From Capitulum mitella (taxonomy: Eukaryota; Arthropoda; Thecostraca; Pollicipedomorpha; Pollicipedidae): a stretch of DNA of 64,000 nt. The notes below the pieces were generated by a model, which was not told the origin of the DNA, did not search any database, and saw only the letters and a program-made list of their open reading frames with translations. The DNA is taken from the NCBI GenBank assembly GCA_030062745.1, contig CP099842.1, forward strand, positions 1,798,001 through 1,862,000. Direction: 5' to 3'. This document shows, piece by piece, positions 1,648-61,350 of the stretch (the stretch's first letter is position 1; each line of letters begins with the position of its first letter). The translations under genes and the position numbers were made by a program.

Positions 1648-3741
1648 GTAATTATCACAGTTTTGAAGAGGTCGTTGTGCCCGAAGTGAAAACGATGATG
1701 GTTCAACCCAGTGAATCGTGATATTGACATTCTCCATATTCATTACGCCATTTTATGGTACGCGAGATCATTTAATGCGTGGAATATGCCTGGAAAACTG
1801 CACAACATCCGGCGTGTTTTTTTTCTTGAATTTCCAAATCCTGCACATGTGAATTAATGCCACATGAAGCCCATTGCATCAGTGCAAGATACCTCGTTCA
1901 AGAGGAAGCGAACTGTGCGCGCCGGCGCGCTGTATTGAGACAGCCAGTTAACAGACAGCTGTCTGACAGCCAGACAGACAGTTAGCCTGACCGCCGCCCG
2001 CAGGCGTCTCTGGGCGAGGACAGCTCGCTGTCGGTGGAGTTCCTGGAGCTGCTCATGTTCGGCGTCCCGTCGCCGGAAATGGAGCAGTTCCTGTTGAACG
2101 ACCTGACCGACACGGGCCTGAAGAAGCTGCGGCACTCGATCGAGCTCAGCTACACCAACATCCAGAGCCTGGTGCTGAAGCACCTGCAGACGGTCGGCCT
2201 GCGCATCGCCGACCTCCTGGAGCAGGTCAGGTCCTGACCGCCCAGCACGACAAAGTGGGTCTGGTGGTAGTTCTACGGAAGGCCAACACCATGGAAACCC
2301 TGCGTGTTTTGCGAACCGCTGGATGGATCGTGTGGTGCTGACGTGCAGGGCGTTTGTTACCTCTGCTGTGTTATATCGGGTTTGATTTCGGATAAGATTT
2401 ATGGCGAGGTGCGTTTCTTTTCGTTTGTTCATCGTTCGCCGTTTGTAATGCGGTCAAGTTGGAACTGATAGCACGTTGCCCTGAACATCCATTTTCCTGA
2501 ACGTCAGGTCTTGACTTTCTCAAACCAATGAAGTCTGCGGTCGGGCTTGGGTGGCCGTGTGATCCAACAAGTCCAGTAACTCCGGTACGGTCCGACAGGT
2601 GGCCGGCATGGCACGCTACACGGAGCGGTTCGGTCATCTGGGCCTGAGCGGGGAGCGCGTGGAGCAGGCGCAGCAGGCCGCCGCCCTCTTCCTAATCAAG
2701 GCCACCGAGCTGCAGCAGGTGATCGCCAGCTCGACGCGCAACTTCATGGCCTTCTTCCGCTGGCTGTACGTGGTGATCCTGCGGCTGGCCGAGGTAAGCG
2801 TGCCGCCCGACTGCGTCAAGATCTCGCAGAAGGAGCTCTCGTTCATCGCCCAGTTCATCGACACCAACCTGGGCGACAGCGCCACGGCGCGCGGCGTCCA
2901 CCTGGAGCGGGTCGGCATGTACCTGCGCGCCGCCGAGCTGGACGCGCCGCCCAGCCACGAGCGCAACACGTGGCGACGCCTGCTGGCCGACTGTCCGCAG
3001 CTGGCGGCCGCGCCCGGCCTGGTGGCGCCCACGAACGGCGCCCGCTCCCTGCTGCAGGAGCGGGACGCCCTGCGCGCCGCCATCGCGCAGCTGTTCGCCG
3101 GCCCGGGCGCGGCCGGCTCGCAGACGGTGGCGGCGCGGCCGGCGGCGCCGCTCGGTCGCGCCGCCGGCCGGCTGGCGGCCGTGTCGGCCGCGCCGCCGCC
3201 GGAGCCGGCGCCGGCCGAGCCGGGCCGGCCGCGCTTCCTGGCCGTGCAGGCGGACGAACGACGCGCGCTGCTGCGCGTGGCGGCGGCCGGCGGCGCGGCG
3301 CCGGCCCGGCCGGCCGAACTGCGGCTGAGCGAGCTGCTGTCGGCGCTGGGCCTGCCGCCGCCGGCGGGCGCGGCGCCGCGTCTCCGCCAGGTGGAGTTTT
3401 TCTCGGGCGCCGTGCTGTCGGCGCTGGTGACGGATGCCGGGGCGCCCGTCTACCTGCAGCTGGACCTGAGTCCGCTGCTGGAGCCGGCGGCCGCCGCCGC
3501 CGCCGGCGCCCGGCTGCAGGCGGACCCGGCCGCCCACTGCGCCGGCCGCCAGCTGGAGAACATCGCGCCCGTGGCGCTGGCCGTCAGCGGCGCGCGCAAC
3601 CTGGTGGCCGTGCTCTTCAAGGGCGGCCGGCGCGCGCGCGTGTACGACACGGCCGACGGCGAGCCGGAGGAGAGCACGCTGGAAACGACGCACGGCTCTT
3701 GCGCCGAGTCCATGGACGACAACAAGGAGAACCTGCTCTGA
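34..3741 (+). CDS. ANAPC4: Anaphase-promoting complex subunit 4, 3' half
   Basis: Scaffold subunit of the APC/C ubiquitin ligase, which drives mitotic exit. Four exons fit the frame: 34-213, 906-1159, 2004-2225 and 2599-3741 (TGA at 3739-3741), each bounded by AG and GT. Family signatures of the long helical domain are clear: EAWETVLVEMDSK, LLMFGVPSPEMEQFLLNDL, LKKLRHSIELSYTNIQ, FFRWLYVVILRLAE and KISQKELSFIAQFIDTNLG. The first exon looks like the end of the N-terminal WD40-like region. The gene starts outside the window. The last exon carries a long Ala/Pro/Gly-rich insert (about 3100-3540) that I do not remember in vertebrate ANAPC4. The acceptor of the second exon lies in a tandem duplication (see findings): 906 is the only acceptor matching the phase of the first exon, and it adds a repeated 21-residue segment. 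An AATAAA at 4621-4626 could end the transcript. Confidence 0.9.
720..1020 (+). repeat. 50-63-bp tandem duplication across an ANAPC4 splice acceptor
   Basis: Six degenerate copies of a unit starting GTGCTGAG(C/T)(C/T)GGTC lie between 720 and 1015. The last three also carry the coding start GACGAGGTTCGGCT, at 846, 908 and 971, each preceded by an AG acceptor. Spacing is 62 bp, then 63 bp. Confidence 0.85.
1593..1645. repeat. (TA)n microsatellite
   Basis: About 26 uninterrupted TA units within ANAPC4 intron sequence. Confidence 0.95.
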
Positions 3742-5352: not shown

Positions 5353-8300
5353 CTAGTTGCGCGGCAGGTTGTATTTCACGTAGGGGACGTCCAGGTCCTC
5401 GCCCTCGGTGTCGTTGCAGACCATCTCCAGCACGAGGGCGCGCACGTGCGGCTCGATATCCTTCTTGGACACGGTACGCACCACGTCGGACATTTTCATC
5501 GCCATCCGCTCCGCCCGCTTCGCCGGCGGCATGAAGAACGAGTACAGCATGGACACGTTCTGGCTCAGCATCGAGATCTCCAGCTTGTGCTTCTCCATGA
5601 AGTAGTCGATGAACTCCTTGAGCGTCATCTCGCCGTCCACGTCGAAGCGGTCCCAGAGCGTCCACTCGTGGTCGTAGTACTTGTTCTTGGGGCACGGGAT
5701 CGGCTCGCTGAAGGCGATGAACGGCAGCGCCAGGTTGGCGAACGCGTTCTTGTAGAGCTCCAGCTTCTTGTGGCCCTGCGCCAGCTTGATGAGCTCCAGG
5801 CAGACGAGGCCGGACACGAGCGAGGTGGTGGTGGCGATGGCCGGGATGATGCGCCCCGCCACGCGCTTCGTCTCCTGCCGGTCGGCCGGCGCGATGTCGT
5901 AGTTTTCGGCGCGCAGGTTCGAGCAGGCCACCACGAAGTCGATGTGGAAGTTGGAGTCGTCGTCCTTCTCGAACTCGGCCGGCGTGACGGTGAGCGGGCG
6001 CAGCTGGGCCGCCGGCGGCAGCTCGGCGCGCACCCGCTGCAGCAGCTCGCCGTCCAGCTGGCCGGTCATGCTCTCCGCCTCGGCCTCGGTGGTGGCGATG
6101 CGCACGCCCGACTGCGGCGTGAACGTCGGCACCTCGGCGGCGCGCGCCGCGGCCGCGATCGCCGCGCGGTCGCGCGACTGCGTCAGCCCGTACACGGCCG
6201 CCTTCAGGTTGGCCGCCGCCACCACGTAGTCGACGTGCAGCGGGTTGTCGGCGTCGAACTCGATCGCGTGCGGGCACCGCTTGGGCGGCGACCAGAACGG
6301 CGTGCCGCTGCTGGTCACCTGGTCGGCCGGGAAGTTGAACAGCAGCTGGCGGATCTGGTTGGAGAACTGCTCCTGGAAGTGGCGGCGCGCCCACACCACG
6401 CAGTCTTCGAACGTGCGCGGCCGCTCGTCCACCAGGCAGCGCTTCACGGCGTCCAGCGTCTCGACCGGCTGCGAGCCGGGCAGCTTCAGCGCCTTCTCCA
6501 CGAACTTCGGGTCGGACAGGTAGAGCGCGGCGCTCTCCGCGCACCCCCGGAACGCGCCCTCGAACATGTCGCGCGCCCACTGGATCGTGTGCTCGATCGC
6601 GTTCGGGAAGTTCTTCAGCGTGCAGATCGGGATGCTCTTCTCCTGCGGGTCCTGCGAGGACGAGTACGACTCGGTCAGGAACGGCAGCACCACCTGCACG
6701 TTGCCCTTGGTGCCCAGCGTGCCCGACTCGAGCAGCGGTTTGCGGTAGTAGACGCAGCGCCGGTCCATGTACACGCGCGCCTGCACGTTGTCCAGCGCGT
6801 TCGCCACGCCGTCCAGCGACTCGAAGAAGTCGTCGTCGAACACGGCCTCCGTCTCGGGTCCCACGCGGTCCAGCTTGTGGATCACGTTCATCTGCCGCAC
6901 AACAAGTCAACAGTCAATATGACGACCACTGGCAGGGTGCAATGTGATGTGCTGTGACGAAACGTGATCACGGATCAATGGCAAGTCGCCATTGGTAAAT
7001 CAGTGTACTTTCCGCGTCCTACAGCAAGATTCCAAACCATTTTATGACGAGATTGGCCAATTTACGAGATACGTGGGAATCCCATCGACATTGGATACGG
7101 ACATTTTTGTGTGAGCGATTACAGGTTTACAATCAGCTTCACTTTTTTTACTTCACATTCATCACAGTACAACTGCATTACTCGAAGATGTCGTCTCTGA
7201 ACAGAAACAAAACTAAGTCTGCAATGCAGCAAAGCCTTACAACATTTCACTTCCTCAATTCAAACAATTCATTAAACTGCCATTTGACGTCATAAACTAT
7301 CACGTTGTCAAGAACTGCAAAAAAAATCATCAATTAAGGGCCTCCATCGAGGTCTCACCTTGGGGTTCATCTTCTTGACGGCCTCGGCGGCGCAGGCCGA
7401 CTTGGGTTTGCCCACGTGTTCCTTGTGAAACAGGAACTGTCTGTTCAGGTTGGACTTCTCGATCAGATCCATGTCGGTCAGTATCACGTGTCCCGAGCCT
7501 GCCGGCGGCGAGGGCAGAGCGAAACGATCAGCGGCGCGACCAGGCAAGATACCAGGAGAAAAACAACCCCTGACGGCCCGACTGTTTACACCCAGCTCCG
7601 TGCCTTGGGTAGACCCAGCGAGGAAATGTCGGACCCGACCTCGGGCATATGCACATCTGACATGAAGAGCAGCTAGCGGGTTTGTTCTCACTGTTCTCTG
7701 TGCTTTTGAAAAGGATTTTGCCGCACGACAAACACATCTCAATAACGCAACTCACGCGTCCCGACCGTCCTACAGTTCATACTTTGAGCATAAGCTCCGT
7801 CTTACGCCGGCCAAACGAGCCCACAGCCAGGAAGTCCCTCACAAGACGACGCAAAGCGTTCACGCGTGCCTTTCGCGCCTCCATTCCGCCGGCGCCCGCA
7901 GCGCTCACCCGTGCCGACGCCGAGCATGGCCATGTTCTTGAGCAGCTCACAGCCGATGGCGCCGGCGCCCACCACGAAGAACTTGAGGTCGGCGAGCCGC
8001 TGCTGGAGGCGGCGCCCGAACACGGCCACCTGCCTGTCGTAGCGGGAGTCCTGCGGCGCGCACTCGGCCTCAGTCAGCTGGCTGCGGTCCTCCGGCAGGC
8101 ACTCCAGCGCGTCAAAGTACAGCCACTGGTTGATGGGCATGAACTTGCCGGAGCAGGACTTCATCACCTCCTGGGCGACGATGCTGCCGATGACGCCGTT
8201 GACGGGGCACACTTCGCCGGCGCAGATGTTGGCGAACACGGTCAGCAGCGACTCGTCCAGCTCGTCCAGCCGGTCGCTGTGCACGCCGTTCACCTCGCCG

Positions 8301-9832
8301 GCCAGCGCGACGAACGCGGCGGCGTCGGCCGCCGACCACGGCGTCGGCAGCCGGCCGTGCCGCTTCGCGAACTCGTGCAGCGTCTGGAAGGCCAGGTGGT
8401 ACTGGCCGGTCAGGTGCAGCTTGCCGAAGTCGGTCGGCACCGTCTGCGGCTGCTTCATGGCCTCGCGCAGCGGCTGGAAGGCCAGCGTCACCGGCTGCTT
8501 CACCTGCGTCACCAGGCCGCCCGACACGTACTCGGAGTAGGCCTCCGTCGAGCCGATGCTGAATGTGTACGGACCTGGCGGGACGAGCCGCGGTCAGTAC
8601 CGTGCAGCGTGACGCGCGAGCGTTAGGTCGGAGAGGTGCCGAGCGCGTTTACATTACACGTAAGGACGATTAAGCAATTGGCTACCAGTAGCGGAATCAT
8701 ACATTTCCATTTCGCCAAAACTCCCCGTAAGGTCATTTTCAGTGATCGGAACGCAAAACCAAATCAGAACAGGGCCCGCCACCATGATACAAGCGCACTG
8801 GACAAGCGTTTCGAGTTCCTCGTTCTGGGCACTCCGCCTCCCCACCGGCCGCAGACGGCGCGTGGGCCCGGCAGACAACGCGCCGACCGCGGCCGGCACG
8901 AATCGACCTGGCATTTGCCGGCGGCCACTGACGCCGCCGCACCTCGCCAAGTCGCCATGGAAACAGGTCGATAGCCGGCCGGCGCGCCATGCGGCCCGTC
9001 CGACACCGCACCCGCCGCGGCCGGCCGTACTCGGGCCGGCCGTGGCACCCAGAACGTCGCGGCCGGGTCGGAGCGGCGCGAAGGCGCCGCAACGACAGCC
9101 GGACCATTCCATCGCGGCCCGGCACCCACCTGTGACCTTGATCTTGATGGGCGCGCAGTCGTTGAGCTCGGTCATGCCCTTGACCTCGGAGAAGGTGACG
9201 TAGTCGCCGTCCTCCAGGCCGTGGCGCGTCTCGTCCAGGCAGCTGACGGTGCCGTCGCGCGTGATGCCGGCCACCATGGCCGTCTGCGCCGGCTCGCCGG
9301 TCGTGTCGCGCACCGTGAACGACGGCCCGAAGTCGCAGAACACCTGGCCGAAGAGGCCGCGCGTGTCGGCCACGATCAGCGCCGTGCCGTGGCGGCGGCA
9401 CGCGTCGCTGATGCGCAGCTGCTCGTCCAGCGAGGCGCCGGCCAGCACCACCGTGCTGAACTGGCGCAGCAGCGGCTCATCCAGCGGGCCGTCGTGCACC
9501 TCGGTGCGCACGTACGGGTTCAGCTTGGCCAGCGGCAGGAGGCTGGCCTCCGCGCGGCTGCGGCCCAGGTCGGCCTCCGAGAGGAAGAACTGCGAGCCGA
9601 GGTCGCCCACCTCCACGGCGCCCGGGTCGTGCAGCGTCACGCTGCGCACGCCCGACAGGATCACGTTCTTGGCCACCTCGACGCCGAGGCCGCGCAGGCC
9701 CGAGATCAGGATGTTGGAGGCGGCCATGCGCTGCATGGCCTCGCGGCCCAGCACGTACAGCTGGCGCGAGTAGAGGCCCTCGTCCAGCTGGGCGGCGGCG
9801 CCGTCACCGGACACGTCCCGTCCGGCCGCCAT
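5353..9832 (-). CDS. UBA1: Ubiquitin-activating enzyme E1, main coding exons
   Basis: Activates ubiquitin with ATP and passes it to E2 enzymes in cytosol and nucleus. Coding exons on the minus strand: 9832-9130, 8574-7909, 7498-7359 and 6891-5353 (TAG). Phases 1, 1 and 0 agree at every junction, giving 1015 codons from the ATG at 9832. That is close to the roughly 1018 of the human short cytoplasmic form. Landmarks in order: [12 protein letters not shown]; the first adenylation half ([18 protein letters not shown]); the active adenylation domain ([31 protein letters not shown]); the catalytic cysteine in [23 protein letters not shown] (about 6640-6590); and the C-terminal ubiquitin-fold domain ending [12 protein letters not shown]. 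No key residue looks missing. Third positions are strongly G/C. The N-terminal exon is a separate entry. Confidence 0.96.
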
Positions 9833-10039
9833 CTGGCCGTTTCCCGGAGCCGTTCTGAGCAGTCATCCCCTGCGGCAGAGCGGCGGCCAGTGTCAGAGGA
9901 GGGCGCGACGCGGAGGGGGGGGGGCGGCAGCGGGGCCAGACAGGGAGCGGAGACACACACCTGGTTCGCGCCGGGCCGTGGCGACCGGCCGGTCATGCGG
10001 TTAAGGAGCGCCGCACAGCAGGACGGGTTCGGTCGTGCC

Positions 10040-43574: not shown

Positions 43575-46052
43575 TCAGTGCCACTCCCAGCGGGGCAGCG
43601 CGCGGCGGCGCCGTCTTCGTCTCTGGTACCCGGGCGGCCGGCCGCCCTGGGTCCGTCGGCCGTACCAGGGCGGTCGGTGGCTGCGGCCCCGTCTTCCGTA
43701 CCCCGGCGGCCGGCCGCCCCTGCCTCGTCGGCCGTACCAGGACGGTCGGCCGCCCCGGGTCCGTGTGCCGTACCCGGGCGGCCGGCCGCCCCTGTTCCGT
43801 CGGCCGTACCAGGGCGGTCTGTGGCTCCGGCCCCGTCGCCGATGCCAGGGTAGCCGGCCGCCCCGTCTTCGTCGACCATACCCCGGCGGCCTGCGGCCCC
43901 GGCTCCGTCGCTGCGGCGAGGGCGGCTGCTGGTGGGTGCCGCGCGTCGGCCGCCGGCGCGGCGCCAGCCCGTACGGCACGCCCATCTTCCGCCGGATCCA
44001 GCCGACGTACGGAGCCACAGCGATGTTAACCGCCGGGAAGCTGGAGCCGCAGCCGATGCCGACCGAGATGACGCCGACCAGCACGTGACGCCGCTGCGCG
44101 TCCAGCATCACCACCGGACCGCCAGAGTCGCCCTGCAGCCGCAGACGGGGGGGGGGGGCAGGTCATGCACTGCAGGGGCAGGGATGAGATGTCCAGGGTA
44201 GACGGACGGCAGTGAAGCACGTTTGGCCCGTAGATAAAACGTAATCATCGTCGACAATGAGCACAGGTCTCGAGTGTTAGAGGGGGTAGCGGAACACAGT
44301 GTACAGTGCTATATACTCCTACATATTCCAAAACGTCACTCACGAGTCGTCTCAGACAACTGGCGACGACACTCAGGAGAAGGCGCATGCCAATTCGAGA
44401 CGGGCAATCGTCATCGGGGGCACACCTTGCAGATAGGCGTTCCCGACTGGCTGGAGGCCACGCACAGCTTGTTGGCGCCCAGCCCGCCCGGGAAAAAGCG
44501 ACTCAGGATCCACGGCGGGTAGGCCTCTTCACAGTGCGAGAAGGCCAGCACGCGCCGGGACGGGTTCTTCAGTCGCGTCGCCACCGTCGCTAGAGCGGGG
44601 CATGACATGTCAATCTCGCATTTGTACCTCCCGAGCACATGCCAATGATAGATCCTTTGGAACGATTACTTTATAGTTCCGATAGCGATGAACAGTTTGC
44701 GTTATAAATTACATCGGGCGAAAAAAGCAAATAAAAATGCCCTCGGGGCACGCAAAAAACCTACAGATCGTTTCTTTGCCAATCAAGGGGAAAATTGCAT
44801 GTCCTGTGGACATTCGTTCTGTACTTTCGAACAGGTGCCATTCGTAAAAACAAATTCCCAGGGCCGCATCACGTGACAGTGGGGTGAAATTATCTTTGAT
44901 CTCAAGTCTTGAACCATACAGTAATGCTACATGGTCATGCAAAACAATGCGTTCGCCTGCTTACTTTCCCCAAACTCCATTTGTCCCCACCCGGCCATGC
45001 GGACGGAGGCATTCGGTGGCACTTGTAGTTGCGGTCCCGGCAGACAGATGGTGTTGACGTTCGGGCCGAGTCGGGCCGGCTGGTTCAGCTTCAGCAGCGC
45101 TATGTCGTTGTGGTGCGACTGCGAGCCGGCGCTGTACTCCGGGTGGAGAATGATCCGCGAGACGGCCAGGTCCTGCTCGGAGCCGCTCCAGCGAGTCGTG
45201 TCGTGCTCGCCGAGCCGCGCCAGCAGGCGGCGTCTGCGGCGCGAATCGAGGGGCGCAGCCCGGCCCGGTCAGAGCCCGCCCGGGGGAATCGTCCGGCGAC
45301 AGGATCAGAGCCGGGCCGGGACGGTAACAGTCATCTACTCCTGCAGATCAGTTGACACCCCAACAGAGCTCATGGTCGTCGTCGCACCCGCCGGAAATCT
45401 GTGGTGACGCGTTTGTGCGGTGGGAGCAACGGCGCAATCCGCTGTGTACGGGAACGATGGAATTTCTGTGGAATCTGGGGGGAAGCAAACGCGATATTTC
45501 CCTTTGTTTCTTCTCATGCAACACCATAGGGCTAATGTTAAAATTTTCCCAAAGTTGGGGAGGCAGCTACTCTCCCCCCCCCCCCGTCTCCCCTTTCCCG
45601 GTTCCAACGTCCCTTGCTGTGTAGCGCACGACAGACACCCACACTCCTAAGCACAGTGAAACCATAGCTGTGAATCACTACCAAAGCATCCTCCTAGGCT
45701 TCACTCCAATCGTATAGGCGTATGTACCTACATCCAGGGCAAATATTCTATGCATACGACTACCAACTCTGACAACGTCAGCGCCTCCGATTTGGCCGGA
45801 TTCCGTCAGAGAAGCCTGCTTAAGATCGGCCGCTCCAGGCGGACGGAACGGCGACCGGAGACCGTCCGGTCGCCGATCGCCGTTAGGGGGGACGGACGCC
45901 CACCTGGTCTTGAGGGCGCCGGCCACGCAGTGCGCGGCCGTCACCACGTACCGCCGGCCGACCAGACTGCCGCCGCACAGCCACTTGATCCGGGCCCGGC
46001 GCCGGCCGGGCCCGGAGCCGCCGCTGTCGCGCACCCAGTAGCCGAGCCGGGC
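43575..46052 (-). CDS. Clip-type serine protease with Arg/Gly/Pro/Tyr repeat tail (3' exons)
   Basis: Secreted S1 protease of the kind used in arthropod clotting and melanisation cascades. Minus-strand exons 46052-45904, 45233-44965, 44589-44426 and 44132-43575 join in phases 2, 1 and 0, giving 379 codons plus stop. Catalytic triad: His in WLCGGSLVGRRYVVTAAHC, Asp in HHNDIALLKL, Ser in CKGDSGGPVV. RLGEHD and MAGWGQMEFGE are typical of clip proteases. The residue at S1 position 189 appears to be Pro (GTPICKGDSGG), not the trypsin Asp, so specificity is uncertain. After the protease domain (ending YVGWIRRKM) comes a tail of about 130 residues with some eight 12-residue repeats of the type RRNRGGRPPGYG or RRGRSHRPPWYG. 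The propeptide, any clip domain and the IVGG cleavage site lie in exons I could not find. Confidence 0.85.
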
Positions 46053-49000
46053 CTGCGGCAGCCGAGACCGGCCTCAGTCTCACGCCCGCCGGCGGCGGTG
46101 TTCCCGACACGCCGGAGCGCCGCGGCAGCCCCGGAGAGCGGCGGCGTGAGGTCCGCCGTACTCGCGACGCGTTTTGACGCGCTGTGTTGCTGGTGATGGC
46201 GCAGGCCACGGAATGCAAGCGATCACAGGCGCAAAAAGGGGAAACGGACATGTCTCCCCTTTTTCAGTCGTGTTGGAGATCTACGAATGATCTACGTCAC
46301 GAGCGCAGTGACGCAGTACGGAAGAGTCACAAGTAGATCAATGCTGAAAATGTTCTTGTTTTACTTTTTCACATAGAATCTTCAATATACGCCGTGATGT
46401 TCGACCATATTTCCCAGCTGAAATGGTGGCAACCTATGGCTATGCGGTGTTCCGAAAGCAGCAATGTATCATCCTGTAAAACTGCTTTGAAATGACGTTA
46501 CCACGGACTTCGAACTCGAGTGAGGTTACATTTCCGTCGGTTGGTTGATTATTGGGGCTTAGGGGCGTACCGACTACAAGGTCATTCGGCGCCCAGTTAC
46601 ATTTCCGTCGTCAAACACGGACTATATCTTTTCAGGAAGCCAGTCTCTGACATATTTGACAAAGTAGAAAAATATTTTGATATTGCGTTGCACATTGCTC
46701 CATTTACTCCTTTTTGCAACGCTGATTACATGAGCTTCACAATATCCCAACGAACTCAGTCCGCTGCACATTTGTCCCGCAACTCAACGTGCAAACGCAT
46801 AAAGTTATACAAAATGTCAATAATTCATACACTTTCATGTGCACGCCTTCAAGGAGGCCTATCGAGTTCTTTTACCGCCAATCTAAGCTCATACTCATTG
46901 ACTTACCATCCAGGGGTGGGGATGACTGCCTCCGACCGTGCCGCATGCGGCACGTCTCGTTAGCCCCGAGCGCTGTCCGGAACTGAAATCCACGTCTGAC
47001 AAAACACGTGCCGATCAGAAGTCAACGTCATGGCTCTGCAGCGGATCAGACCATGGAGGAAGACAAGGGGTCATCATTTTCCGCAACGACGATGATGGAA
47101 ACGGAGCCCGTGCTAAGCAGAGCTTGCTGGCTCTGCGCGGACTCCGACCTTGCACTCGACTGAGCAGTCTCATGCAACGGCCGATTTTGTGGCGCCAAGT
47201 TTACCGTGCAGTCGAGGGTAAAACAAAACCATTCTGTCGATGCATGAGAAGTAGCAGTGACGGACACCCTTGGAAGACCGTATGATACAGCACTTTGGTT
47301 CTGGTTGAAATCCATCTAACAGACAACACAAAGTCATCAGTCATCTAGTCCTGGAAGAGAGTCCGATGTTCGTTTCTGGACGCATCACAACACAACATAA
47401 GACACGCAACACAGAGACCAGGACACACATCCCCTTAGTCTCAGACGTCCAGTCTTGGCTCTTGAATCAAGATTTGCGTCTCGTCGGGCATCGATCAGTT
47501 GTCACGACTGGAAGTACGGGTGACCTGGTTAAACTCGCCAGGGAACAGACAAGTCCAGACTCGTTAACTCAGGTCCGGGTGATGTCGAGATATTTCGGGA
47601 ACTGAAATGATTGGCACGCCTTTATCCAGAAGCACCGATTGCTGATATTCTTAAGATAACGACCTTACTGCCGGATCAAGAACCTATCCCACGGACTGGT
47701 GTTAGCCGTCTGGGACAAACACAGGTCACCTAATCACCACGCCGGCGCGAACCCAGCAATTTACAAAACTGTGTCTTGTCATGGGGCGGACTGGAGACGA
47801 AAGAATGGGCCATCTACCACATGTCCTTTGAGCATTCTGTCCGTGTCGCAATACATTTTTCAGCCGATACGGGAACTTCCACTAGAAGGTTTCAACCCGG
47901 TAAAGCAGGGCCTATTTTCACATGTCAGTTGGGGGGGGAGGAAATCTTCACCAGTGACTGCCAAATCTCCCCATTACACACCGAACCCCCCCCCCCCTAA
48001 AAACCTTATTTTATCAGTTCACGCTAGTTCACGCTAGTTTTGCTAGTTCACGCCCGACCAGGTCTTTAACACGCTTCAGGCAGAGACTGTGAGCAGCACA
48101 TATCTGGATGATGAGCCAGCTATTAGTAAAAAAAACAAACGAAAGATAATCGCACAGCTTTTTTCAAGGAAAAACGTCAGACAGGTTTGAAAATCCGTCA
48201 GCCGGAATTGGATTCGCGTGGATGAGTGCAAAGCTCGGGGCAAGGATATCACCCACTAGTGCTCTTTATGCTTGTGACGACGCTGTCAAATGATTGGCTC
48301 AGTTTCATGAACTGCTGCGATCGCAAGGGAGATATAACAGATTGAGCAAAAATACGGCGAATCCGGCTGACGGACCGATAGATATAGAAACGGGAGCCGA
48401 CGGCCTTTGGCCGGCTTGACCCCTCCCATGTAACCCCCAAAACACGACCCCCTAGCTCCCCATGTACGAACAGAACAACGCCATAAGGCGCATGCGTTTC
48501 TCGGACGCACCGGCCGCGTTTTTGGTCGTTTGCCACGCCGTACGTTTAAAGCCCTTCTCGCGTGCAAATTTTGCATTCGAATCAAGTTTCGGCCGAAAGA
48601 GCTGATCGAATTCACGCCAGAAACATCCCAGGGTCGCATTGCACGCTTCGTTGCCAACAGACGGCTTCTGTTCGTTGAACCAAACGTCGGCAGTCTGGTC
48701 TCCGCAAAGTTCTCACGCCAGCATCCCAGCACTGTTCGACAATGACGCTACGCGCTTCAGTTAAGTTACTGTTCAACGGCTGACCAAGCTGCTCACAGTA
48801 CTGCTTTACAAACGCGCTGCGAACTTCATGGAAGCAGAAGACCTTCGGGTGTTTGTTCTGTCTGGATGTCCTCGCACTTCGCGCTCGGACGTCACGCTCG
48901 CTTTGAGCACGGTGCATCCAGCAATTTCAAATGGCATGTAAAAGAGCGCATTGCGCTTTAGTCAGAATCTTTTCCACAGTTGCTATCAACAAATTTCCCT

Positions 49001-54775: not shown

Positions 54776-54970
54776 ACATGGAACCAGAGCATCACTCCAG
54801 CTAGCCACAGCTCCTCAAGACAATACTCGTCATTGTCGTATTGCCGGCACGTTATTGTTGTAGTCGTGACAATAACGTGCCGGTAACGCCGCTGTGGTCA
54901 GTTTGATATCATGATATCATGATATCAAGCAGAATCAAGCCAGGACTTTCTGGAGAATCGCCGTCTTATT

Positions 54971-55444
54971 ATGCGTTTCTTTCCAGCTGTGCGCGCGGCC
55001 CCGGCGCCGCAGCCCCATAATGGGCGGCATCGCCACCGTCTGCTTTGCTTCGGCAACCCGGTGCTGAACGTGGTGCTGAATGTGAACAGTAGCGAACTAC
55101 CGAGCAAGTGTGGCCTGTGGACCGACGACCAGACTGAGACCAACCAGCAGCAGAAGCCGCTGTTCGAGGTGTTCGGCAACGGCCAGGTGTCGTTCTGTCC
55201 GGGCGGCTCGGTGGAGAACACTCGCCGGTACTGCCGGGTTCTGGGGGAGCTCGGACGGGTAGTCTTCATCGGCGCTGTTGGCGTCGACAAGCTCCGTCAG
55301 AGACTGGAGAAGCTGTTCAGCGCGGACAGCGTCGTCACCAGATACGTAGTGCACTTGGGCCAGCCCACGGGGCGCTGTAAGAACCTTGCGTGTGGTGCCG
55401 ACCGCTCTTTAGTGAACGGCATCGACGGTACCAATTTCTGGTGA
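54971..55444 (+). pseudogene. Adenosine kinase N-terminal fragment
   Basis: The open frame (ATG 54971, TGA 55442-55444) matches the start of adenosine kinase, the PfkB-family enzyme that makes AMP from adenosine: LLCFGNPVLN, FCPGGSVEN, FIGAVGVDK, HLGQPTGRC and DRSLV. Only about the first 140 of some 345 residues are present, without introns. Similarity stops at DRSLV, just before the frame closes, and the catalytic GAGD region is absent from the following sequence. The substrate-binding Asp of the usual GNPLLD reads Asn. An AG at 54985-54986 after a pyrimidine run could be an old acceptor. It is probably a retro- or captured copy, since it lies between inverted satellite arrays. A real first exon of a gene beyond 56740 is less likely. 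Confidence 0.6.
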
Positions 55445-56745: not shown

Positions 56746-59619
56746 GACCTGTCTGTTGGAGTTTAAAGTACATTTGTGTCCGCGGCATTTTCGTGGTGTT
56801 TTGTGTTTTGTGCTCTGGAGTGGAAAGTAATAGATGCGATGGACGTCTGATGGTGTCAATGATCTCAGTTAGCCAATATCTATCTACTGACGCGTTTTGG
56901 GCGATTTTAAAGGGGTCTTGAGTTCGGGCTGACCGTGGGCTGAACGTCGGGCTGTCTTGACAGGCATGGGAGATGCCTAGATTTTGTTTTTGTTACCCAT
57001 AATTCGACTGGCCGAAATCCCCTTCCCCCAATGATTCACTCTTACAGCAGGCCCTCCGGTAAAGCCCTCGAACAAGGGATGTTCTTCTCAGTGGAGCCGC
57101 CGCAGCAGGAAAGCCACTAAACGATGCTACTGAATGGTTACAGGCATCGACTGGTGGGTAACTGGAGCATGCCCTAAAATCGCCGAACGGCGATCCTGAT
57201 CCCTTCATAGTGACGTAATCCAATCCAGTTATCAGTCCATGTACCCTTTTGAGGATTTCATGCAGCGCGGGGCTTAAAAAAGCTACAGGTACCCAACGGG
57301 ACGGTTACAACACGGTATTAGATTTGAACAAAAATGCAGAACACAAATGATCATTATTAACCTGGCGCACACGTTCTGCTGTGGAGGTGGGGTTCCGCGG
57401 CCCGCGTTCCCTGTGGGTTAGGCTGTGCCGCCTGGTTCGTGGTTCAACGATATACAGGGTTCCTGGTGCGGCTGCGGTCGGACTCAGCGCCCGACCAGGA
57501 TACCGCGATTTGGTCAGCTGAGCGGGTGCCTGTACAATGCACCCCTGTCTCCTAGAAGTACGACAACTTTGTGTACATACGAAAACATGTGGTAAAAAAT
57601 ACCGCAACCGTCACAAGAGTCTTCCGAAGTTTCCATGACTGACGATTCTGGGAGCGAACGAGGAGTGTTAGGAGTTCCTCTGTCTTGTCAGGTACTTTAG
57701 TATGGGGTTCATTTACTCACCGGAATTATTCACTGGAAAGGGATCGTTCATAGTCGAACTCAAATGAAAACACCGATCAGTTTTTTAGGACATTTTCATC
57801 CATGAATATTACGCCCTGTACAAGGAAACGATGACCAGCCTCTGACGGTTGCTCGGAGAACGCGACACGGCCAACCAGTTCGAAGCCGAACATTCGAAAA
57901 CTTGGAAAAATGGAAGGATTCAGGAACTCAGAGAGCGTGAGAGGCCATATTACTATTATGTACCAGTGTTCCGTTAGTAAGCGCGCGCTCTCTTTTTTTC
58001 CTTCGACGTGTACTCCATCCAATACGACATTCCTCCACTTAATGCGAGTATCGCACACTGTACGCAGCTCACATACTAGGTCGCACAACAACACACATTC
58101 CAGGTTATTCTGGCCTACGGGGAGAAAGACCTCTCTCTGCGAAGCAGTGGTGCCTATATAGGTGCTCTTTCCCCCTGCCCCGCTCAGTACTCCGCCCTTC
58201 CATCAGTGAACCCCGGAGGGCGGCGGCCGCGCTCGGCAACTGTTGGATACATGAATCATGGCGGATGTTCACTGTTTTTTAGAAGCTCGATCAATCGTGC
58301 CCATTCATCTTTGTAACTGGTCATCGTATCTGCGACTGAAGCTATGTACTTTTCAATTGCTATGCAACGCAATGCCATATTTACAAATCCTTGCAAAATA
58401 GGAAATTGCCCCAAAGTTTTGCAGAACCACATGTAATGTTTCCCCAGAAGAAAGCTTGGACGCTCTCTTAGTTGGGGAGATGGCCTTTTACAAAACATTG
58501 TCATGTCTCTCCCCTTAAAAAAGATGGGGCGCTTCTGAACGACCGCGTCTCATTACTATTCCACATCACCGCGCTAGGATCAAACGAAATCGTGCACAGA
58601 TCAGGCTCGGAAGTCCATGAGCCACTACCGATGGAGAGGTCATTTAAAGGTAGGCAGATTATACACCAATTTTCACACCAGTCGGCCAACTTGGGTCTCA
58701 GTGACCGAAGTGGGTCGTTAGAAATAGCTTCACGCAGTAGTCGACGGTGTTAAATTTAGATTAACTATGTGTTTTTATTAAAAGATTATAAAGAAAAAGA
58801 TATATCATAAAAAACAGAGACAAGCGGAGCCATGCGACAGCTGAGAGGAAATCATTGCACAGCATTAAGTTGTCCCTGTTTTCCTTGTGGGAATGCAAAA
58901 AAACGAGGATTAGGGTATCATGTTTTAACTCCATTAGTAAACGGCGTGATCCTAGAACTGTTCACCCGTTAGTGACGAGAACTGTTCGGTATATTTCAAC
59001 GGCACCATTTAAAATACGCAACTGACCTGGCTGCGTAATTGGAACATGCACATGTAGTTATGCTGAAGTTGTCTTGCACCGCGAAACGTGACTGCAACAT
59101 GTCTGATGTCTTTCTCGAAAGTAATTTCGACGGAACCCAGGAGGGCAGAAATAGCATGAGAAAGATATTCGGGTCACTCGCACATGAAACGCAGACGCAT
59201 AAACGTAGCGTGACATACATTTTGGGAGAACACTGTATTCATGTTGCAACTCAGCACACTAACATACGTTCGTGAGACGAAAGCCATCGACGTAGCGTTT
59301 CCATGTCCCCTTTAATTAAAGGAACAATGCAATCGGAATAACAGCACCAGAAGCCAACCATGCAAAACAAAAAATAAAAATAAGTAAATGTTTTCAAAGA
59401 AGTCATGCATTAAGTAGCATTGCCCCTCCAAATGGAAACAATTTACGTCGCGGGGCCACCTTCAGAAAAGCCTATTCCGTTGCCGCTTCGGACGCTGCTG
59501 CTCGGCGCCGCAGATGGATGTTCATGCAAATCACTTTTGGCTTCATTGCTTTGTGAGCACCAGTGTTCTCCAGTCAAAGCTCGCGTCGGTTGCGGAAGTT
59601 ATCGCGGACACTGACCCAG
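56746..59619. other. Gene-poor stretch with weak coding candidates
   Basis: The only hints of coding are on the minus strand at 57777-58760 (next entry). 57390-57560 is GC-rich and may be a repeat fragment. No tRNA or other RNA gene recognised. Confidence 0.35.
57777..58760 (-). CDS. Possible coding exons of an unrecognised minus-strand gene or relic
   Basis: A segment from 58114 to 57777 follows a good acceptor (TCTTTCTCCCCGTAG) and stays open for about 110 codons to a stop (LTEHWYIIVIWPLTLSEFLN within). Upstream, 58504-58256 (82 codons, QFPILQGFVNMALRCIAIEK within) and 58750-58501 (about 80 codons, LADWCENWCIICLPLNDLS within) are open in adjoining but different frames. Residue use looks protein-like, but I recognise no domain and cannot join the pieces with confident splice sites. 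Confidence 0.25.
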
Positions 59620-61350
59620 TTAGTCTTCCTTCTCTTCCTTGTCTTCCCGGACTTCCACCGTTTCCATTTCCTGTACGCTGAGCTTCTTCTTATGGACGTA
59701 GAACAGGCCGCCGATCACGCCTCCGATGAGGAGCAGCGCCACAACCGTGCCAGCAATGGCACCGCCGGGCACGCCGCCGACCGACCTCATGCCGGCGCCG
59801 TCGTCCTTCATGTGCTCGAACGCCTCCCGCTCGGACAGGAACACGCGCAATATCTTTGTCGGCATCGGGTGATAGGTGATGCCCAGCTTGATCTTGAAGA
59901 CGGCTGGGGTCATGTACTTGGGGTGCACGGTCCACAACCAGTTGAAGTCGATGCTGGTGTCGGAACGATTGGGCCGAATCTGAGGAGAGCCTTCTGGATA
60001 GATGCTGCTGAAGCAGAGAACTCTGCGCTTGGTCGCGTTGCTGTGCAACACTTGTGCGGTCATCATTCCGCTGCAGTCCTGCCACTGGTACACGAAATTG
60101 GACTTACTCACCACTAACGCAAACGCCGAGTGGTCCTTAAACAGGTTTGCGATGGGTTCTATGACTGGACGTTTGTCGCCGAAAGCTTGGATGACAACCG
60201 TACACCACTGGCTGTAGAAGCCGATGCCATTGCCAGTACCAAAAGACTCCAAGTCGAATTTGTTTTCGGTGTAGAACTGATAATCGCCCAGGGAAAGAAT
60301 CATTGGCTTTGATATGGATGCCGAACACATCGCCTTTATAGCACGAGGGTATGGGTCACCTGACCAAATCTCGCACAGATGCCCACTGAAACCAGGTGCA
60401 CAGGCACATTCGCAGTCCTTGTCGATGTATCCGAAATTTCTACACCGTGGTGGCTTCTTGCACTTGAAGACGCTGGGACAGTCGTAATCCTTCATGATTT
60501 TGTATACGTCGAAGTGGGAAATCATTTGCCCAGGGCCAGTGAGCTGCGAGTAACCAAGCATCCATTGGTTGCCGCGATCTCTTGCGACGTAAGCAGCTGC
60601 CGGTTCGTGGAAAGCTAACATATATCCGATATCGCCGAAAGCGCTGAACGAATTAGCGATAGAACGAAAATCAAATGGGTAATCAAACGTAAACACCGTT
60701 TTCACGCAATGACGTGCATACACCGACTGAGCCAATGCTTCTATGTCCTTGACCGTCCACTTTGGTTTCAGCACGGAAAAACCACCGAAGGATTCTGTCA
60801 GGCTTGCCATGCTTTGAATGAGCGCTTCGTCATTGCGGTGGATGAATTTGTTGAAATCGGGACGCACCTCCATTTGAGACCGCAGGCCGAGGGCTCTGCC
60901 AATTAAATTTGCAGCAAACGTATATCCAGATTCAACAGGCTCACTTTTGGCTGCAAATGTCGGAAACGAGCCAGCTGCTGTTGCACGAATCCCGGCCGAC
61001 ATGTTTCCGGTGTCGTGGTCTCCTTTTTCAATGCAAAAGTAAGGAGCATCGAAATGATTCGCGCATTTCACTCCTTTCCCACATGGCGCTCCTCCAGCCT
61101 TGCATTTCGGAGTTGCCGTTGAACCGAAGGTTATGCATTTTTCGAGGGAATTTTGAAACTGTTTTTTGGCAATTTTTAAAGCAGCGGCACTGGTTGCGTC
61201 TGGTTTATAACCAGCAGCTGTTATTGAATTAAACGTGGGTATCTTTTTAACTATCCATGGTTTGCCATCCAAATATTTTCCGATACACCAATTCACATTC
61301 CAAATGAAAATGTAAAGGAAAATCACTGGAACAAGTGGAGGCCGCTTCAT
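59620..61350 (-). CDS. Membrane-anchored astacin-like pseudoprotease
   Basis: A single exon of 576 codons. I chose the ATG at 61350 (not the in-frame one at 61440) because MKRPPLVPVIFLYIFIWNVN is a good signal peptide. Residues about 55-290 follow an astacin (M12A) domain: helix LKIAKKQFQNSLEKCITFGS, the zinc-helix position YTFAANLIGRALGLRSQMEV, the Met-turn position FDYPFDFRSIANSFSAFG and the closing QMISHFDVYKIMKDYDC. The zinc signature HExxHxxGxxH is absent (NLIGRALGLRS) and the SIMHY turn is lost, so no zinc protease activity is expected. Next come an EGF-like domain (Cys 291-326), about 190 residues of unknown fold with several Cys, a transmembrane helix (about 529-552, GGAIAGTVVALLLIGGVIGG) and a short acidic tail. 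It is probably a type I surface protein acting by binding. No introns, which suggests a retrogene. Confidence 0.8.
   Translation of the reverse strand: MKRPPLVPVIFLYIFIWNVNWCIGKYLDGKPWIVKKIPTFNSITAAGYKPDATSAAALKIAKKQFQNSLEKCITFGSTATPKCKAGGAPCGKGVKCANHFDAPYFCIEKGDHDTGNMSAGIRATAAGSFPTFAAKSEPVESGYTFAANLIGRALGLRSQMEVRPDFNKFIHRNDEALIQSMASLTESFGGFSVLKPKWTVKDIEALAQSVYARHCVKTVFTFDYPFDFRSIANSFSAFGDIGYMLAFHEPAAAYVARDRGNQWMLGYSQLTGPGQMISHFDVYKIMKDYDCPSVFKCKKPPRCRNFGYIDKDCECACAPGFSGHLCEIWSGDPYPRAIKAMCSASISKPMILSLGDYQFYTENKFDLESFGTGNGIGFYSQWCTVVIQAFGDKRPVIEPIANLFKDHSAFALVVSKSNFVYQWQDCSGMMTAQVLHSNATKRRVLCFSSIYPEGSPQIRPNRSDTSIDFNWLWTVHPKYMTPAVFKIKLGITYHPMPTKILRVFLSEREAFEHMKDDGAGMRSVGGVPGGAIAGTVVALLLIGGVIGGLFYVHKKKLSVQEMETVEVREDKEEKED

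Follow-up and report, generated by a model that had tools for sequence, protein, structure and literature searches.

The gene considered here lies on the minus strand of a 64,000-nucleotide stretch of Capitulum mitella DNA (contig CP099842.1; this whole stretch is called the window). It raises the question of what a membrane-tethered relative of the astacin proteases does once its catalytic residues have gone. A first-pass annotation, made from the letters alone, described the product as a catalytically dead astacin with an EGF-like module and an unknown ectodomain. We refer to this product as P0001. We consider it, with a probability of roughly 60 %, to be a type I cell-surface pseudoprotease within a membrane-anchored astacin family, acting by binding.

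The locus and its reading frame

The features of P0001 and its flank, followed by the other genes of the window, are as follows.

59620..61350, minus strand: whole coding frame of P0001, 576 aa, ATG to TAA, single exon as read
61279..61338, minus strand: signal sequence, hydrophobic residues 5–24 (hydropathy)
60478..61257, minus strand: degenerate astacin domain, about residues 32–291, without a prosegment ahead of it (alignment; part before residue 146 weakly supported)
60868..60915, minus strand: what is left of the zinc-binding segment, roughly residues 146–161, HExxHxxGxxH in paralogues (alignment)
60646..60678, minus strand: remnant of the Met-turn, residues 225–235, Met to Ala and Tyr to Ser (alignment)
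60373..60462, minus strand: EGF-like module, residues 297–326, with the six family cysteines (paralogue comparison)
59848..60360, minus strand: family-specific ectodomain, residues 331–501 as aligned (ectodomain profile)
59689..59784, minus strand: transmembrane helix, hydrophobic residues 523–554 (hydropathy)
59623..59688, minus strand: short tail, basic by the membrane and then acidic (sequence reading)
58774..58779, minus strand: AATAAA in the 3' flank, a candidate poly(A) signal about 0.84 kb beyond the P0001 stop
2563-3738, plus strand: frame matching anaphase-promoting complex subunit 4 (PF12896, 1.7e-13)
5353-9862, minus strand: exons of a ubiquitin-activating enzyme E1 (Pfam matches to UBA_E1_SCCH, E1_UFD, ThiF, E1_4HB and E1_FCCH)
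43578-46073, minus strand: exons of a trypsin-like serine protease (domain matches)
54923-55441, plus strand: partial pfkB-type kinase frame (1.5e-6)

The 576 codons of P0001 sit within a stop-to-stop frame of 625 codons. The longest such frame in 40 simulated sequences of 64 kb, generated by a first-order Markov model of local composition, was 298 codons, and a chance origin of the frame was rejected on this comparison. The other two sense frames across P0001 contain 27 and 15 stops. The frame is thus as long and clean as first described. The hydrophobic start, the EGF module, the membrane helix and the acidic tail were also recovered at the residues listed; the final 21 residues include nine Asp/Glu and four Lys/Arg. 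The protein has three N-glycosylation sequons. A second candidate poly(A) signal, ATTAAA, lies nearer the stop, about 0.3 kb beyond it. Scans of the 64-kb window for tRNA and Rfam families returned nothing. The last matched frame of the trypsin-like gene extends into a long tail rich in Arg, Pro and Gly.

AlphaFold2 run on P0001 as a single sequence gave a mean pLDDT of 36.2, too poor for the suggested comparison with crayfish astacin, and the astacin fold presumed for P0001 rests on sequence homology.

A membrane-anchored astacin family in the same genome

The first-pass annotation could point to no described family with this architecture. A lone orphan architecture was discarded once paralogues had been found in the same genome (477 Mb, 16 contigs). 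At E values up to 0.001, P0001 found at least 30 further matches (31 including itself), and a search with the relative L013 found at least 27. We read the frames of 20 loci from the former search and nine from the latter, and the match counts are lower bounds. The long frames are of two kinds: astacin-EGF proteins without a membrane helix, and a membrane-type family that includes P0001.

The membrane-type family comprises at least 20 genes, scattered over 11 of the 16 contigs, and most are read as one long frame. The 20 listed members are P0001, L002-L014, L016, L035, L036, L038, L039 and L046. This is again a lower bound, with PF01400 matches such as those at C6:4979478, C14:17158667 and C8:20603913 left unread. 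A hydrophobic helix near the C-terminus is seen by hydropathy in 16 members, P0001 among them. It is not seen in L010, L038 and L046, which are short frames, or in L036, where it falls under the threshold. Identity of P0001 to 13 aligned relatives is 21–25 %.

The zinc-binding motif HExxHxxGxxH is kept in 13 of the 20 members and lost in seven. Besides P0001, the dead members are L009, which retains only the third His, L046, which retains the third His in a short frame, L013, L016 and L038, which retain none of the three, and L039. The sequence of L039 (553-2913, minus strand; G000:C10:18656423) reads HMMVHALGLMH; its three His residues, the Met-turn Met and the Tyr are kept and the catalytic Glu is replaced by Met, so that this protein may bind zinc without cutting. 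Long frames persist among the dead members (582, 561 and 601 codons in L009, L013 and L016). In these three, the frame itself shows no clear signal sequence. Upstream candidates were found at -243 for L009 and at -539 for L016, with none for L013, and an upstream exon is possible.

Several other members deserve description. The astacin, EGF and membrane parts of L046 (G000:C2:11083052) seemingly lie in different frames, as if this were a broken gene or a gene with introns. L003 (613-3213, minus strand) has an intact motif, a Met-turn in which Glu replaces Met, and a charged tail of 220 residues past the helix. L004 and L006 (G000:C3:24071974 and C3:24080121), both with an intact motif, are neighbours about 8 kb apart and are 73 % identical.

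The proteins without a helix (L015, L017-L020, L040, L043, L044 and L047) resemble P0001 in having a similar EGF module after the astacin domain (compared by profile for five of them). They differ in that their motif is intact and that no C-terminal membrane helix was read; we read their C-terminus as CUB. In a tree that did not include L044, the other eight group in a clade of their own with a support of 100/100.

Kinship of P0001 with astacins

Direct searches do not identify P0001. The Pfam Astacin profile (PF01400), which had been suggested as a check, gave no match to P0001 alone at E values up to 10, and the Pfam hits in that range were two chance families of transmembrane type. NCBIfam gave no useful match to P0001 alone, and phmmer against the PDB gave nothing useful (one match at E 3.7). 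PF01400 matches 13 of 14 family members at E values up to 0.1, the exception being P0001. It has 52 matches in the whole genome, none of them to P0001, L013 or L016.

The kinship becomes visible when a profile is made from ten intact paralogues, with P0001 left out. This profile matches P0001 over residues 146–571 with 143.5 bits (i-Evalue 9.8e-45, set of 20), spanning the end of the astacin domain, the EGF module, the ectodomain and the helix. The dead relatives L009, L013 and L016 score 270.6–341.1 bits. Five astacin-EGF proteins without a helix score 120.6–143.5 bits, matching only as far as the EGF module. They score about as high as P0001, and its placement in the membrane family therefore rests on the ectodomain, the helix and the tail. 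A profile of the ectodomain only, from the ten paralogues, matches P0001 over residues 331–501 (4.4e-10, 29.9 bits, set of 20). This match is modest. The same profile matches 15 of the 20 members, ten of which were used to build it, and P0001 scores lowest of the 15; L035, L036, L038, L039 and L046 are unmatched.

The first-pass annotation had followed the astacin scaffold from its first helix to its closing cysteine. The profile match bears this out from residue 146 onwards and does not extend to the part before it. That part aligns in order, with a TCIxF-like block and Cys 72, 83, 96 and 106, and in scoring it ranked second of 1950 sequences, the other 1949 being its own shuffles, one of which scored higher. 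It is plausible rather than proven that the scaffold can be traced from the first helix.

When a profile of the family (14 rows including P0001) was compared with the PDB, the best match was 3lqb (1.7e-22), with meprin beta 4gwn at 2.3e-18 and crayfish astacin 1ast at 8e-16; these matches are carried by the rows other than P0001. Membership of the M12B reprolysins was rejected, as the best family E value is 4.7e-34 for Pfam Astacin vs 0.0013 for Reprolysin_5. The only other collection scanned, of viral contigs, contained no relatives of P0001; three stretches there fit a pattern. P0001 is homologous to astacins by these comparisons, a relationship visible only through its paralogues. The reading of a dead, membrane-tethered astacin relative is upheld by the 143.5-bit match together with the replaced active site described below.

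Loss of the active site and retention of the scaffold

In alignment with the 13 intact-motif paralogues, each of the residues reported as missing at first reading is indeed replaced. At the positions H, E, H, G and H of HExxHxxGxxH, P0001 has N, L, R, G and S: the first His is Asn148, the catalytic Glu is Leu149, the second His is Arg152 and the third His is Ser158. The motif Gly (Gly155) is kept, as it is in all 20 listed members. The SIMHY-type Met-turn with its switch Tyr is also absent, Met being replaced by Ala232 and Tyr by Ser234. The 13 paralogues have the zinc motif by definition. Met is kept in 12 of them (Glu in L003), as is Tyr (Gln in L035).

The prosegment of astacins carries an FxGD-like motif. 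P0001 is missing the prosegment, including xxGD. Eight of ten full-length intact-motif members compared have xxGD (absent from L003 and L005; the truncated L010 was left out of the count).

All zinc ligands and the Glu are replaced, yet all six EGF cysteines and both conserved ectodomain cysteines (426 and 446) are kept. The EGF-type cysteines are residues 297, 303, 313, 315, 317 and 326; five of these positions are conserved in 15 of 15 members compared and the sixth in 14. The astacin domain of P0001 runs from the first aligned Trp (residue 32) to the closing Cys (residue 291). Within it, Cys 72 (15/15 members) and Cys 291 (14/15) are kept. A figure legend in a 2023 review of astacins (PMC9848320) gives a Cys pair C42-C198 in crayfish astacin, to which, in our reading of the alignment, Cys 72 and Cys 291 would be equivalent. 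At residue 141 P0001 has Ser where the family has an aligned Cys, and one family disulphide may have been lost for this reason. Another family Cys is aligned with His 214, next to Cys 215; this offset may be an alignment slip, so we do not count a Cys as lost there.

The ectodomain of the family (about 170 residues, alignment of nine members) had no match in the PDB at E values up to 1. Pfam gave nothing convincing for nine paralogues, only two single-member matches (0.16 and 0.17). It remains, as first noted, an ectodomain that matches no known family in these collections.

Evolutionary history and constraint

The protein branch of P0001 is among the longest in two trees, at 3.37 changes per column in the first (20 rows) and 2.7 in the second (27 rows, without L046 because of its broken frame). 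In the first tree, four dead rows lie on one side of a branch with a support of 50/82. In the second, which also has L038 and L039, two changes are required to account for the dead rows, and these form a single clade in 25 % of bootstrap trees. A constrained dead clade is not rejected with six rows (p-AU 0.45) or with four (p-AU 0.19). The second analysis also flags possible attraction between long branches, of L035 to L039 and of P0001 to L038. One loss of catalysis and a few losses both appear to fit the trees, a test that the long branches limit.

Six pairs entered a codon test. L013/L016, the one pair of dead members, has a dN/dS of 0.28, a weak value as its dS of 2.8 is close to saturation. 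The pair L004/L006 has a dN/dS of 0.30. P0001 has no near relative and is therefore absent from this test; its long branch could also reflect relaxed constraint.

Comparison with meprins and ADAMs

Meprins alpha and beta (M12A, vertebrates) resemble P0001 in having an astacin domain, an EGF-like module and a membrane anchor. In the 2023 review it is the meprins that stand for membrane-bound astacins, and their orthologues have been detected in vertebrates only. Meprins differ from P0001 in being active and in having MAM and TRAF domains (same review), for which there were no matches among 14 family members.

ADAMs carry an EGF module. The dead ADAMs (ADAM2, 7, 11, 18, 22, 23, 29 and 32; M12B) are membrane-tethered metzincins of which active and dead forms coexist, as they do here. 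ADAMs are a different peptidase family: among the 14 members there was no disintegrin match, and reprolysin was a weak match, second to Astacin. We regard P0001 as a possible parallel to the dead ADAMs and claim no membership among them. L039 resembles ADAM29 (HHLGHNLGMNHD in a table of PMC11266112) in that the His residues are kept and the Glu is lost. ADAM22 and ADAM23 bind LGI proteins (LGI1) through the metalloprotease-like domain, according to this 2024 review on dead metallopeptidases. The review also indicates that the metalloprotease domain of sperm ADAMs seems dispensable and that other domains are apparently used. The dead domain of P0001 thus need not be its binding part.

In the 2024 review the word astacin occurs once, in passing. 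For astacins termed membrane-anchored, transmembrane, inactive or pseudo-, the literature searched yielded a single editorial; few subscription papers were covered, so absence is unproven. No such family was described among the matches listed in other literature searches, as judged by titles and the openings of abstracts.

Possible roles of P0001

Comparison shows that P0001 shares ancestry with the membrane astacins of its own genome, and that their prosegment, their zinc site and their catalytic set are lacking in it. It retains a scaffold made of most family cysteines, the EGF module, the family ectodomain, the membrane helix and the acidic tail. On the reading that we prefer, the surfaces with which its active relatives grip their substrates or partners would have been kept or re-aimed. 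P0001 might bind at the cell surface via the pseudo-active cleft or the ectodomain. Its task there could be that of a receptor in adhesion or of a decoy, or it could partner active members without catalysis of its own, much as dead ADAMs do. A gamete, matrix or immune ligand would be a candidate partner.

The strongest competing explanation is that P0001 is a dominant-negative or chaperone-like partner that tunes its active paralogues and is not an independent receptor. In its favor, the ectodomain, helix and tail are common to intact-motif and dead members encoded in one genome. Membrane-bound meprins form dimers, and a meprin dimer is mentioned in PMC9848320. We think this role unlikely, if worth keeping in view: the ectodomain of P0001 is the lowest-scoring of those matched by the profile.

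A decaying pseudogene, its function gone and a stop codon not yet met, would explain the very long protein branch. Within the same family, L010, L038 and L046 are read as short or frame-broken. Against decay, the frame is open for all of its 576 codons in a stretch where the other sense frames are interrupted 27 and 15 times. At 21–25 % identity to its relatives, an unconstrained frame should hold many stops. The hydrophobic start, the EGF cysteines, the ectodomain and the membrane helix are all kept as well, and we judge this account improbable. A different catalytic site in place of the old one is scarcely credible, as no metal ligand or Glu of the astacin site is left in place in P0001 and the dead paralogues vary in the residues that replace them, a pattern not expected of a single new site common to all.

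The binding role that we favor for P0001 may belong to a wider picture, which we put forward tentatively and hold to be somewhat less probable than its opposite. One animal lineage would have made its own astacin-derived counterpart of the ADAMs: dispersed, mostly single-frame tethered proteases whose ectodomain is undescribed. Roughly one in three would have died, possibly through repeated losses, and would now be a fast-evolving surface binder.

Conclusion

P0001 is a pseudoenzyme paralogue with other dead members in its family. It represents a branch of astacin pseudoenzymes that are tethered to the membrane and carry an ectodomain without a convincing match. The case illustrates how a gene that has no name in Pfam can be identified through the paralogues in its own genome. 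With 13 members that keep the motif and seven without it, mostly on one architecture, the family would allow one to ask how binding outlives catalysis, in parallel to the ADAMs.
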